The notes beneath the pieces were generated by a model that was not told where the DNA came from, searched no databases, and worked only from the letters and a program-made list of their open reading frames with translations. 20,086 nt of DNA from a virus. Positions 5,817 to 9,857 of this stretch are shown one piece after another. Made by a program: the position numbers and the translations under genes. How positions within the stretch are numbered: the stretch's first letter is position 1; every line of letters starts with the position of its first letter. The DNA is taken from IMG/VR virus record IMGVR_UViG_3300027747_001088, positions 1-20,086 of that record; one strand, given 5' to 3'.

Positions 5817-8108
5817 ATGGCAGCTTCAGGCTACACACAAATACAACTATATAATACAGCAAGTTCTGGTGTTGTGCCATCCTCCTCCAACCTCACCACT
5901 GGTGAACTGGCGGTTAACACGTTTGACGGTAAGTTATACTTTAAATCAACGGCTACAGGAACCAGTGGTAACGTGGTGCTGTTAGCCTCTGCCGCGGGTG
6001 CCGTTGCTGCAACTAATATTTCTGGCGGTACGTCTGGACAAATACCATATCAAAGTGGACCGAGCACAACAACCTTTGTAACGGCACCAGGATCCTCTGG
6101 CACGTACTTGGGCTGGAATGGCTCTGGCTTTGTGTGGTCAGCCACAACAGGGCCGTCAGGCTACAGTGGTTTTAGTGGCATCTCTGGATACAGCGGACTT
6201 GGGTTTAGTGGTGGCTCTGGCTACTCTGGACTTAGTGGATATAGTGGCATATCTGGATTTAGTGGTGTGTCTGGCTACAGTGGCACTAGTGGGTTTAGTG
6301 GTATTAGTGGGTTTAGTGGCATTAGTGGATTTAGCGGGTTTAGTGGCATTAGCGGGTTCAGTGGTATTTCTGGTTACAGCGGTACTTCTGGCTACAGTGG
6401 ATATAGTGGATATTCTGGGCTAGGGCTATCTGGTTACAGTGGTATCTCAGGCTATTCTGGCGCAACCGCCGCCTCTGGTTACAGTGGTGTTTCAGGTTAC
6501 AGTGGAACGTCTGGTATTTCTGGCTACAGTGGTATTTCGGGATATTCTGGTGTCTCTGGCTACAGTGGATCTGGAATATCAGGGTTTAGTGGCTACTCTG
6601 GCGTGTCTGGTGCTAGCACATCTGGCTACAGTGGTGTTAGTGGATACTCTGGTGCAACTGCCGCCTCTGGTTACAGTGGTATCTCTGGTTACAGTGGGGT
6701 ATCTGGTATTTCTGGCTACAGTGGCTTTGGTATTTCTGGTTACAGTGGTACTAGTGGATACTCTGGCGTAACGCCTTCGTCGGTGGCAAACATCACGGGC
6801 GGTGCAACAGGCTCATTAGTGTATCAGTCTGCAGCCAGCACAACAGGATTTTTAAGTATTACTGGAAGCAGTGGCAAGGTTTTAGTCGGTGGTGCTACAA
6901 CGCCATCCTACGCCGCAACGTCTACACTTACTGGCGTTGGTAGTGCAACTAATATTGCTGGCGGTGCAGCCAATCAAATTCCTATTCAAACAGGTTCGGA
7001 CACAACAAGTTTTTCACCAACGGTCACTGTTGGATCATCAAGCAACCCTGGGTTTTTAGCATATAACGGAACTAGTTTTGTTTGGTATCAATGGAAAACT
7101 TTTTTAACAAACACTAACATTAACGCAGCATTGGGCTACACCGCGGCTGACGCGGCCGGTACAAACGCTTCTGGCACTTGGCCAATTAGCGTTACTGGTA
7201 GTGCGGTTAATATTGCTGGCGGTTCTACCAATCAAGTTCCGTACCAGTCTGCAGCTAGTACAACTGCATTTTCCTCTAACATGACGTTTAACGGCACAAG
7301 TTTAACGTTAGCAAAAGACGTTAAAATTAACTCAATAACGGCAGGTATTGGAGTAAATGGGGATTCATCTGATACTATTTTTGCTAATACTACATATTCT
7401 GGTTCGTCTACTGCAGGTCAAAATAGTATATTTGGTTCTGCAACATTTACAAACGCAACGTCCGCCAGTTACACCACCGCAATTGGCTATGGTGTATTAG
7501 CTAGTGTAACAAGTGGAAGTTATAATACTGCGGTTGGAAATACTGCATCACTTTTCACTACAGGAAACTATAATACTGCAGTTGGTCATCGGGCGTTGTG
7601 TAACAATTATACAGGAAACTATAATACTGCAGTTGGTGCTTCCGTAAACAGTCTTAGTATTTATGGAAGTAGTAATATATTGATTGGTTATGACCCACAA
7701 CTGCAAGGTCCATATGATAATAACTCAATCGTTATTGGATATAGCGTAACAGGTAAAGGTTCCAACACAACCGCAATTGGCAACAGTTCTACAACGGCGA
7801 CTTATTTATATGGTTCCACTGTTATGTACGCGCCAGTTGCCACCCCAGCGGCGGCGGGAACAATTGCTAGTGCTGCGACCATTGCACCCACAGCATTAAT
7901 TACATTTATTAGTGGCACGACTACAATTAACACCATAACAGCACCAGCGCCATTAACATCTGGTGGCGGTCAGTTAACATTAATCCCAACGGGGTTATGG
8001 TCAACAGGGACAAGTGGAAACATAGCACTAGCAACAACTGCGGTTGTAAGTAAAGCATTAATTATGACCTACGATTCTACTACAGCAAAATGGTACCCAT
8101 CTTACTAA
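5817..8108 (+). CDS. Tail fibre with Gly-X-Ser collagen-like stalk
   Basis: This 763-residue fibre begins after AAAGGAA, spaced six bases. Residues 1-50 hold a LTTGELAVNTFDGKLYFK motif typical of phage fibre anchoring domains. Residues 114-318 are a continuous Gly-X-Ser stalk (GYS, GIS, GFS, GVS, GTS). Four copies of an NI-x-GG...Q-x-PYQS...STTxF module lie near 66-87, 324-345, 378-399 and 464-485. Residues about 487-502 read NMTFNGTSLTLAKD, shared with the first fibre. Residues about 525-660 are NTAVG-type beta-roll repeats. The C-terminal domain (about 670-763) is Ala/Thr-rich and ends TTAKWYPSY. The role is probably receptor binding. It directly follows the glycosyltransferase genes, so it may be co-transcribed with, and a substrate of, those enzymes. 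Confidence 0.83.
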   Translation: MAASGYTQIQLYNTASSGVVPSSSNLTTGELAVNTFDGKLYFKSTATGTSGNVVLLASAAGAVAATNISGGTSGQIPYQSGPSTTTFVTAPGSSGTYLGWNGSGFVWSATTGPSGYSGFSGISGYSGLGFSGGSGYSGLSGYSGISGFSGVSGYSGTSGFSGISGFSGISGFSGFSGISGFSGISGYSGTSGYSGYSGYSGLGLSGYSGISGYSGATAASGYSGVSGYSGTSGISGYSGISGYSGVSGYSGSGISGFSGYSGVSGASTSGYSGVSGYSGATAASGYSGISGYSGVSGISGYSGFGISGYSGTSGYSGVTPSSVANITGGATGSLVYQSAASTTGFLSITGSSGKVLVGGATTPSYAATSTLTGVGSATNIAGGAANQIPIQTGSDTTSFSPTVTVGSSSNPGFLAYNGTSFVWYQWKTFLTNTNINAALGYTAADAAGTNASGTWPISVTGSAVNIAGGSTNQVPYQSAASTTAFSSNMTFNGTSLTLAKDVKINSITAGIGVNGDSSDTIFANTTYSGSSTAGQNSIFGSATFTNATSASYTTAIGYGVLASVTSGSYNTAVGNTASLFTTGNYNTAVGHRALCNNYTGNYNTAVGASVNSLSIYGSSNILIGYDPQLQGPYDNNSIVIGYSVTGKGSNTTAIGNSSTTATYLYGSTVMYAPVATPAAAGTIASAATIAPTALITFISGTTTINTITAPAPLTSGGGQLTLIPTGLWSTGTSGNIALATTAVVSKALIMTYDSTTAKWYPSY
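6156..6770 (+). repeat. DNA encoding the Gly-X-Ser stalk
   Basis: About 205 codons follow a strict three-residue period, G-[Y/F/I/V/T/L]-S, broken at intervals by short inserts such as ATAA, GLGL, GAST and GSGI. The DNA is an imperfect array of about 9-18 nt units (variants of tctggctacagtggt), with many synonymous changes, so it is old rather than freshly expanded. Because of the period, neighbouring frames also lack stop codons, giving spurious open frames there. Confidence 0.85.
7278..7300 (+). repeat. Inter-fibre shared module, copy in the second fibre
   Basis: These bases are identical to 1063-1085. As in the first fibre, this copy sits at the junction between a GC-richer fibre shaft and an AT-richer NTAVG repeat region, so it could have served as a recombination point. 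Confidence 0.7.
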
Positions 8109-8117
8109 AGTAAAATT

Positions 8118-8393
8118 ATGATATTTTTTTATTGTTTTGTTATTTTACAACTAGCTGATTTGTGGACAACCTACGTGGGGTTAAACAAAAACATTGCGCA
8201 CGAAGTTAACCCAATCATGCGGTTTTTGTTTTTTAAAATGCCCACATTGCCAATACTTATTTTAGTTAAAATAGTTTGTTTAATTGTGGCTTGGGAAATA
8301 AAAGACAATGTACTTGCATTAAAAGTAATAGATTTAATTTATTTTTTTATTGTTTGTCATAATTTTTTAATTATTAATAGGGTGTCAAAATAA
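8118..8393 (+). CDS. DUF5658-like membrane protein
   Basis: This 91-residue very hydrophobic protein has three probable membrane helices, at about residues 1-22, 42-58 and 68-86. The first helix carries LQLADLWTTYVGL and is followed by the loop HEVNPIMRF. An acidic residue in a helix followed by an E-x-NP loop is the pattern I associate with the DUF5658 family, whose biochemical role is not known. It starts nine bases after the fibre stop with a poor ribosome binding site. It is clearly AT-rich compared with the fibre. It opens the run of membrane proteins that leads to the lysis genes, so it might act as a holin or antiholin, but that is positional inference only. Confidence 0.68.
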   Translation: MIFFYCFVILQLADLWTTYVGLNKNIAHEVNPIMRFLFFKMPTLPILILVKIVCLIVAWEIKDNVLALKVIDLIYFFIVCHNFLIINRVSK

Positions 8394-8394
8394 C

Positions 8395-8625
8395 ATGGAC
8401 TTACAGACTTTAATAAACACAGTACTTCCATTAATCTGTGTTGCAATTGGCTGGTTTTGCAAAGAATTATGGACGGCAGTTCAGACACTTAAAATAGACC
8501 TTCACGACCTTCGCACCCATGTGGCTGAAAACTACGTGCACAAGGACGACTTTTCTGGTCGCTGGGAAGAAGTCCTTAAAGCGATTCATCGAATTGAAGA
8601 CAAACTAGACAACCTCAGAAAATGA
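8395..8625 (+). CDS. Small membrane-anchored coiled-coil protein
   Basis: This 76-residue protein has one N-terminal membrane helix (about 7-22, TVLPLICVAIGWFC). A charged, probably helical tail follows, with the segment VAENYVHKDDFSGRW and then an amphipathic helix to the end (VLKAIHRIEDKLDNLRK). Small phage proteins with this plan are frequent in lysis cassettes and are often left as hypothetical or holin-associated. The start is one base after the previous stop, and the end overlaps the next gene by ATGA, so translation is probably coupled. It could be a holin partner or a tail-associated scaffold. The sequence does not decide between these. Confidence 0.68.
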   Translation: MDLQTLINTVLPLICVAIGWFCKELWTAVQTLKIDLHDLRTHVAENYVHKDDFSGRWEEVLKAIHRIEDKLDNLRK

Positions 8626-8879
8626 GACACAAGATCCTAAACGATCTTCTTACTGGCGCGGACAATAAAACACACGACATTGCCCGCTGGTCTTGGATGC
8701 TGTCATTCTTTGCAGTGCTCTTGGGCGCGGGCTATGAACTAATTCAAGGACAGTTACCCACACTACGAGACTTTGCTGAGTCTATTGGCATTATTTCTGG
8801 GGCTCATGGAGCCGCGGTGATGATGAAAAAAGACACCGAACCAAAGGAACAAGTCAATGTTAAAGACACTACTCAGTAG
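8622..8879 (+). CDS. Holin candidate, small membrane protein
   Basis: This 85-residue protein begins MRHKILNDLLTGADNKTHDIARW. It has one clear membrane helix at about 22-42 (RWSWMLSFFAVLLGAGYELI), a second weakly hydrophobic stretch at 51-67 (FAESIGIISGAHGAAVM), and a hydrophilic charged tail (KKDTEPKEQVNVKD). The size, hydrophobic segments, charged tail and location immediately before spanin and endolysin genes fit a phage holin. I cannot assign it to a named holin family. It overlaps the upstream gene by four bases and the i-spanin gene by 23, and its tail contains AAAGGAA, which is the ribosome binding site of the i-spanin. Confidence 0.62.
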   Translation: MRHKILNDLLTGADNKTHDIARWSWMLSFFAVLLGAGYELIQGQLPTLRDFAESIGIISGAHGAAVMMKKDTEPKEQVNVKDTTQ

Positions 8880-9330
8880 CATTTATGTTTACCTCACCAT
8901 AGCAGTTATTTCCGCACTGTTGTCTGGCTACCTTGTCTTTAACTGGACATCAAGCTACTACTCCAGTAAAATAGAGCACGCTAACGTTCAAGCACTAAAG
9001 GAAAAAGATGAAATTCAACAAAAAGGCGACCAGCTGGTTGCTAACTACATTCAACAACTTGAAAAATTGGGTTCCACCAACGCTGTCTTGCAAAAGCAAA
9101 TTTACGGTGCGGTACGTTCTGATAGTAACGCTACTTGCACTATTACTAGTGGGTTTGTTAGGCTGTACAACGCCAGCGCCCTTGGTGAAGCCTCAAGCCC
9201 CAGCGGCACTGATGGTACCCCCTCCGAAGTTGACGTTGCTACCCTACTCAGCACCGCCATTGAAAACAACACCAAGTACAACAAAGTAGCGCAGCAACTC
9301 ATGGACCTACAAGAGTTTAACGCCAAGTAA
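8857..9330 (+). CDS. Rz: Rz-like inner-membrane spanin (i-spanin)
   Basis: This 157-residue protein has a membrane anchor near the N-terminus (about residues 10-30, YVYLTIAVISALLSGYLVF). A periplasmic helical, coiled-coil-prone region follows (about 37-83, rich in Glu, Lys and Gln). Next comes a CTITSGFVRLYNASALG segment that recurs in many Rz-like proteins, and a C-terminal helix. Size and topology match i-spanins, which with an outer-membrane lipoprotein fuse the inner and outer membranes in the last step of Gram-negative lysis. AAAGGAA at 8843-8849 is eight bases before the ATG. A second gene with all the marks of the partner lipoprotein lies wholly inside it in another frame. Confidence 0.82.
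   Translation: MLKTLLSSIYVYLTIAVISALLSGYLVFNWTSSYYSSKIEHANVQALKEKDEIQQKGDQLVANYIQQLEKLGSTNAVLQKQIYGAVRSDSNATCTITSGFVRLYNASALGEASSPSGTDGTPSEVDVATLLSTAIENNTKYNKVAQQLMDLQEFNAK
8997..9002 (+). promoter_or_regulatory. Ribosome binding site for the nested o-spanin
   Basis: AAAGGA, five bases before ATG 9008, lies inside the i-spanin coding sequence and is well placed for internal translation initiation in the alternative frame. Confidence 0.6.
9008..9289 (+). CDS. Rz1: Rz1-like outer-membrane spanin lipoprotein, nested in Rz
   Basis: This 93-residue protein is encoded entirely within the i-spanin gene in a different frame. A hydrophobic signal (about 36-52, YVLIVTLLALLLVGLLG) leads to Cys53, a lipoprotein-type cleavage and lipidation site; the -2 position is Leu rather than the more usual small residue. 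The mature part is Pro-rich (TTPAPLVKPQAPAALMVPPP...), the hallmark of o-spanins such as lambda Rz1. The ATG at 9008 has AAAGGA five bases upstream. An in-frame GTG at 9107 would give a 60-residue precursor with a shorter, classical signal peptide but lacks a clear ribosome binding site. It should sit in the outer membrane inner leaflet and pair with the i-spanin. Confidence 0.8.
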   Translation: MKFNKKATSWLLTTFNNLKNWVPPTLSCKSKFTVRYVLIVTLLALLLVGLLGCTTPAPLVKPQAPAALMVPPPKLTLLPYSAPPLKTTPSTTK

Positions 9331-9335
9331 CCGCT

Positions 9336-9857
9336 ATGCTAAAACGACTTTTTGTATACACGCTAGTGTGTATATGTATATTTTTTGCACAAAATTTATC
9401 ATTCGTACAAACATTTGAAAGAGATCTTATGGCACTGACCGAATCCACGTTTCGTGTGATTGTTGGCTTTGAGGGTAAACGCAACAAGGCCTACAAGGAC
9501 ACCAAGGGGCTGTGGACTACCGGCGTGGGTCACCTCATCAAGCCCAACGAGCAGCACCTCATCAACACAGTACTCACAGACCAGCAGGTGGAAGAGTTGT
9601 TTAAAAGCGACGCACAGTGGTGTGACGAGGCGATTAGGACTGCGGTGAAGGTACCCCTTAACCAGAACCAATACGACGCTCTGGCGAGCCTTTGCTACAA
9701 TATTGGAGCCAATGGCTTTAAGACATCAAGGTTAGTCAAGGCACTTAACACTGGCAACTACAAACTGGCTGGTGAATACTTTATGGACTGGGTACATCCT
9801 AGCGTCTTAGTCAACAGAAGAAAACAAGAAAAAGCCTTGTTTTTAAAGGATAGTTAG
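9336..9857 (+). CDS. Endolysin, GH24 lysozyme (T4/P22-type fold)
   Basis: This 173-residue protein is a peptidoglycan muramidase. The family triad with its exact spacing is present: Glu46 in GFEGKRNKAYKD, Asp55, and Thr61 in LWTTGVGH (E-8-D-5-T). Other family features are NQNQYDALASLCYNIG and a C-terminal RRKQEKALF. The first 31 residues include a hydrophobic segment (VYTLVCICIFFAQNL) that could be a signal-anchor-release helix or signal peptide. A second in-frame ATG at 9429 (Met32), with AAAGAGA upstream, would give a 142-residue cytoplasmic form needing a holin. The upstream ATG has a poor ribosome binding site, so both forms may exist. It starts six bases after the i-spanin stop. Confidence 0.88.
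   Translation: MLKRLFVYTLVCICIFFAQNLSFVQTFERDLMALTESTFRVIVGFEGKRNKAYKDTKGLWTTGVGHLIKPNEQHLINTVLTDQQVEELFKSDAQWCDEAIRTAVKVPLNQNQYDALASLCYNIGANGFKTSRLVKALNTGNYKLAGEYFMDWVHPSVLVNRRKQEKALFLKDS

Follow-up and report, generated by a model that had tools for sequence, protein, structure and literature searches.

Two Conserved Reading Frames in an Rz-Like Phage Gene and a Very Probable Embedded Two-Component Spanin

Does the +1 frame that lies wholly inside an Rz-like gene of an uncultured phage encode a second protein, and at which codon would that protein begin? The locus belongs to a stretch of 20,086 nucleotides (the window) comprising positions 1 to 20,086 of IMG/VR virus record IMGVR_UViG_3300027747_001088, a phage contig with structural and tail-fibre-like genes followed by a lysis cassette at ~8.1–9.9 kb. 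Spanins are classed as embedded, overlapped, or separated, and nested o-spanin genes are mostly unannotated (PMC6139136). An earlier note, made from the letters alone, had described a lambda-type Rz/Rz1 nesting at this locus and had proposed GTG 9107 as a possible start of the inner gene. Its positions for both frames, for the AAAGGA element and its spacing, for the Cys codon with the 52 residues ahead of it, and for GTG 9107 were all correct (Table 1). As judged by sequence comparison, frames 0 and +1 of one DNA stretch each contain a conserved gene. On the model of the lambda paradigm, from which the function is drawn, the locus is very probably an embedded (lambda Rz/Rz1-type) two-component spanin.

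Table 1. Coordinates of the spanin locus and the adjoining endolysin gene in the window.
Feature	Position	Strand	Description and evidence
i-spanin (Rz-like) gene	8857..9330	+	157 codons, 157 aa; Rz-like PHROG matches, alignment of relatives, AlphaFold2 model
Putative o-spanin (Rz1-like) gene	9008..9289	+	+1 frame, wholly inside the i-spanin gene; 93 aa precursor
SD-like AAAGGA	8997..9002	+	5 bases upstream of ATG 9008; duplex energy -5.6 kcal/mol
Most likely o-spanin start, ATG	9008..9010	+	conserved T at i-frame wobble position
o-spanin leader, 52 codons	9008..9163	+	polar/basic stretch, then hydrophobic VLIVTLLALLLVGLLG segment
Lipobox Cys codon TGT (LLG^C; Thr at +2)	9164..9166	+	Cys invariant in all relatives
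Mature o-spanin, 41 residues, 11 prolines (CTTPAPLVKPQAPAALMVPPPKLTLLPYSAPPLKTTPSTTK)	9164..9286	+	Pro enrichment, synonymous constraint
Endolysin (phage lysozyme family)	9336..9857	+	Pfam PF00959, E 1.3e-31; phrog_7 endolysin, E 2.6e-42

The Outer Gene and Its Lysis Cassette

The outer protein is laid out as an N-terminal membrane segment, a long helix, a linker, and a C-terminal helix. PHROG profiles matched it with E-values of 2.6e-17 (phrog_4952), 2.8e-11 (phrog_1403, “Rz-like spanin”), and 9.4e-6 (phrog_1152, “Rz-like spanin”), the significant matches to phrog_4952 and phrog_1403 i-spanins falling in its periplasmic part. The label of phrog_4952 reads only “signal peptide motif,” and the PHROG match leaves the nested gene uncovered. 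A Pfam search with the i-spanin and o-spanin proteins returned nothing above cut-off for either. The single N-terminal membrane segment and helical periplasmic domain that define an i-spanin are present, with a borderline hydropathy peak (1.61, residues 1–19) and a low-confidence AlphaFold2 model (pLDDT 55) that places helices at residues 2–86 and 127–156 and leaves the region between them unstructured. This low-confidence arrangement agrees with lambda Rz, for which a CC1-linker-CC2 layout has been described (PMC6139136). In the model, the mature o-spanin codons coincide with i-spanin codons ~103–143, and so would begin in the linker and extend into the second helix. In an alignment, 15 relatives all keep Cys94 of the i-spanin.

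The endolysin gene lies directly downstream of the spanin locus, and gene order is alike in the relatives. An N-terminal hydrophobic segment (residues 1–19) and a second in-frame ATG at 9429 (MALTEST) behind GAAAGAGA make the lysozyme a candidate membrane-anchored (SAR-like) endolysin that may have two starts. Relatives L004–L007 have the short form only; the others retain the hydrophobic segment, often with a Met at the inner site. Adjoining the lysis cassette, ORF 8118–8393 encodes a small membrane protein with a DUF5658 match (E 1.2e-9), a possible holin candidate. Two small overlapping ORFs stand ahead of the i-spanin gene: 8395–8625, with one N-terminal membrane segment and a match to phrog_7885 (function unknown), and 8622–8879, which L001–L003 retain immediately ahead of the i-spanin. 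Positions 5817–8108 encode a tail-fibre-like protein with long GYSG/GFSG collagen-like repeats.

The Inner Frame and Known Spanins

The inner ORF ends 41 bases ahead of the i-spanin stop codon. Its predicted product carries a lipoprotein signal, with a hydropathy peak of 2.57 at residues 37–55 and an LLGC lipobox whose Cys (Cys53) is preceded by exactly 52 residues. The Leu at -2 falls outside the [ASTVI] consensus quoted by PMC6139136, in which o-spanin lipoboxes deviating from the consensus are also reported. Searched on its own, the protein reached Rz-like PHROG profiles weakly (E 0.017–0.38), and tblastn against annotated phages gave no match.

The arrangement itself is already known from phage lambda, and the main departure here is the unusually long leader of the second protein. 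In both phages the o-spanin gene lies wholly within the i-spanin gene in the +1 frame, encodes a short Pro-rich lipoprotein, and ends near 0.9 of the i-spanin length. Both also place the mature o-spanin over the linker between the i-spanin helices, which here is read from the low-confidence model (PMC6139136). The nested gene starts 0.32 of the way along the i-spanin, before the 0.4–0.5 reported for about 70% of embedded spanins (PMC6139136). The 52-residue leader sets this locus apart from Rz/Rz1, with which the likeness is one of plan. The order of genes differs as well: lambda has its endolysin gene upstream of the spanins, and here it stands downstream of them.

Among annotated phages, the closest case is Burkholderia phage Mana (P2-like, Aptresvirus), whose CPT_Mana_011 and CPT_Mana_012 are annotated as i-spanin and o-spanin and are likewise nested in the +1 frame. 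CPT_Mana_011 matches the i-spanin described here by tblastn (E 1e-4, 26% identity). CPT_Mana_012 resembles the o-spanin by eye (CTT..P..ALM.PP..L..LP..P...TT...TK), a likeness that tblastn with the o-spanin did not recover. The Mana o-spanin has a leader of 18 residues compared with 52 here, and phage type and gene order also differ.

Selection on Both Frames

A first-round scan with the i-spanin found 7 loci and a scan with the o-spanin 28; with an i-spanin profile, 63 viral loci came up, together with one contig of Polynucleobacter sp. MWH-Berg-3C6. The profile scans carry most weight because their loci were picked by the i-spanin protein alone. In all relatives that cover the region, down to ~31% i-spanin identity, the +1 frame is open with its Cys and Pro-rich tail (53 distinct versions with the Cys, counting the window, and also L081 after inspection by hand). 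The earlier note had held that relatives keeping the Rz frame with a second frame stopped, or stripped of its Cys and Pro-rich region, would speak against nesting; none was found among the profile-scan loci covering the region, and L081 is intact. None of 30 diverged loci keeps the third forward frame open; for the three antisense frames the counts of open copies are 0, 8, and 15. An antisense ORF at 9102–9326 was rejected as a conserved gene, since even the highest antisense count is 15 of 30. In L004–L007, a 24-codon insertion common to both frames lies just before the hydrophobic segment and lengthens the i-spanin and the o-spanin leader alike. The locus is best read as that of a tailed phage with a Gram-negative host, probably a freshwater betaproteobacterium; the sole grounds for placing the host among the betaproteobacteria are the Polynucleobacter contig and the match to phage Mana.

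For 21 diverged members of the window clade, synonymous change in the i frame was set against expectation at codons where the aligned i-spanin residues are identical. Across the mature o-spanin the observed/expected ratio is 0.26 (p 1.4e-11), and across the hydrophobic segment it is 0.64 (p 0.03). Outside the overlap, where synonymous sites are near saturation, it is 0.79 upstream of the nested gene and 0.86 past its stop. The mature part of the distant, Polynucleobacter-associated clade is likewise low, at 0.32 (p 4e-6). Most of the synonymous constraint falls inside the overlap, and with the i-protein also conserved, both frames are under selection.

Short open +1 frames inside genes are common, and an ORF of this kind could arise by chance from the codons of the i-spanin without being a gene. 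When synonymous codons of the i-spanin alone were resampled, single pieces of the inner gene were not rare, the mature frame being open by chance in 1–31% of recodings. The combination of an open mature frame, the last 20 codons of the leader, and the Cys arose in 1.4% of trials for the window and in 0.06–3.2% per relative, and all real loci have it. Hydrophobicity of the last 17 leader residues exceeds the null in 21/21 lineages (mean z +1.9), and so does the mature Pro count (mean z +4.5; 11 Pro in 41 residues in the window against a null mean of 2.1). The loci being related, none of these figures may be multiplied as though they were independent. With the +1 frame retained in every relative, an invariant Cys, nearly frozen synonymous sites in the mature chain, and a Pro count far above the null, we consider a chance ORF to have a vanishingly small probability. 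A true nested lipoprotein might do something else than disrupt the outer membrane, for example set the timing of lysis or act in superinfection exclusion, given that its sequence homology to known o-spanins is weak. Its nesting in an Rz-like gene beside an endolysin, its Pro-rich lipoprotein character, and a plan shared with Mana and lambda make such a role very improbable. An embedded spanin accords better with the features that can be tested in sequence (nesting, lipobox, Pro-rich chain, dual selection, and endolysin neighbor), all of which are present, and the lambda-type nesting of the earlier note is upheld by the conservation of both frames, the synonymous constraint, the lipobox, the Pro enrichment, and the position in the lysis cassette.

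Start Codon, Leader, and Proposed Function

A real o-spanin could still start downstream of 9008, at GTG 9107 or TTG 9038, and have a leader of ordinary length. Lipoprotein leaders are ordinarily shorter, GTG 9107 gives a tidy leader of 19 residues before the Cys, and many relatives share TTG 9038, which follows a weak SD (-4.2). In two relatives, L027 and L057, the ATG has been lost (L057, the one exception among the 21 lineages, has ACG in its place), and a strong AAAAGGAGA site precedes a TTG located 43 residues before the Cys. Ahead of the hydrophobic segment the constraint is only slight, with an i-frame synonymous ratio of 0.69 (p 0.02) in leader codons -52 to -21 against 0.79 ahead of the gene. 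GTG 9107, however, occurs at its position in only 7/21 lineages and has no SD, and on these grounds we reject it as the start, contrary to the suggestion of the earlier note. ATG 9008 requires a T at the wobble position of an i-spanin Asp/Asn codon, and that T is present in 20/21 diverged lineages compared with 34/114 (30%) of the Asp/Asn codons outside the overlap (binomial p ~5e-10, with lineages treated as independent). An SD-like site stands upstream of it in nearly all relatives (-4.8 to -9.1 kcal/mol), and the leader frame from -52 to -21 is open in all lineages, whereas recoding keeps it open in 2–21% per lineage. A downstream start is, in our judgment, improbable. Because the wobble T is kept, an SD-like site lies upstream, and the -52 to -21 frame is open, ATG 9008 is most likely the o-spanin start, and the leader of ~52 residues would therefore be real.

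The leader looks periodic by eye (F3-A7-W10-F15-L18-W21). A conserved amphipathic helix or charge was rejected, since hydrophobic moment (mean z +0.2) and charge (mean z -1.0) lie within the recoding null, and the periodicity is therefore inherited from the i-spanin frame. In the Polynucleobacter-associated clade (L082–L084, L092, L093, L095, L096, and L099), the open +1 frame reaches back 89 codons or more from the Cys, and a conserved TTG lies 85 codons before the Cys behind an AGGAGG-like site. The extended leader from this TTG is rich in Lys, Thr, Ser, and Pro. Most members could instead start from a GTG or ATG at -32, which L083 and L084 lack. The extended frame stays open in 3–33% of recodings, which is less surprising than in the window clade. 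This clade may use the longer, 85-residue leader, a suggestion and not more because its AGGAGG follows partly from conserved i-spanin Gly codons.

By analogy with lambda, the outer gene would yield an i-spanin with an inner-membrane anchor and a coiled-coil periplasmic domain, and the inner gene, read from ATG 9008, a precursor that would be exported, lipidated at Cys53, and cleaved by signal peptidase II. The processed 41-residue Pro-rich o-spanin would be sorted to the outer membrane and would meet the i-spanin across the periplasm. Once the endolysin of the adjoining gene had degraded the peptidoglycan, the spanins would complete lysis by fusing or disrupting the outer membrane. We found no literature on long o-spanin leaders. 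That the long leaders (52 residues, possibly 85 from the TTG) have a function of their own, such as slowed export or timed spanin assembly, seems rather unlikely to us compared with their being a passive result of start placement.

The locus provides statistically supported double coding in uncultured phages, with a corrected likely start codon at ATG 9008, and belongs to the kind of nested gene that routine gene calling drops (PMC6139136). In a family of more than 50 distinct loci, the constraint on two overlapping proteins becomes measurable.
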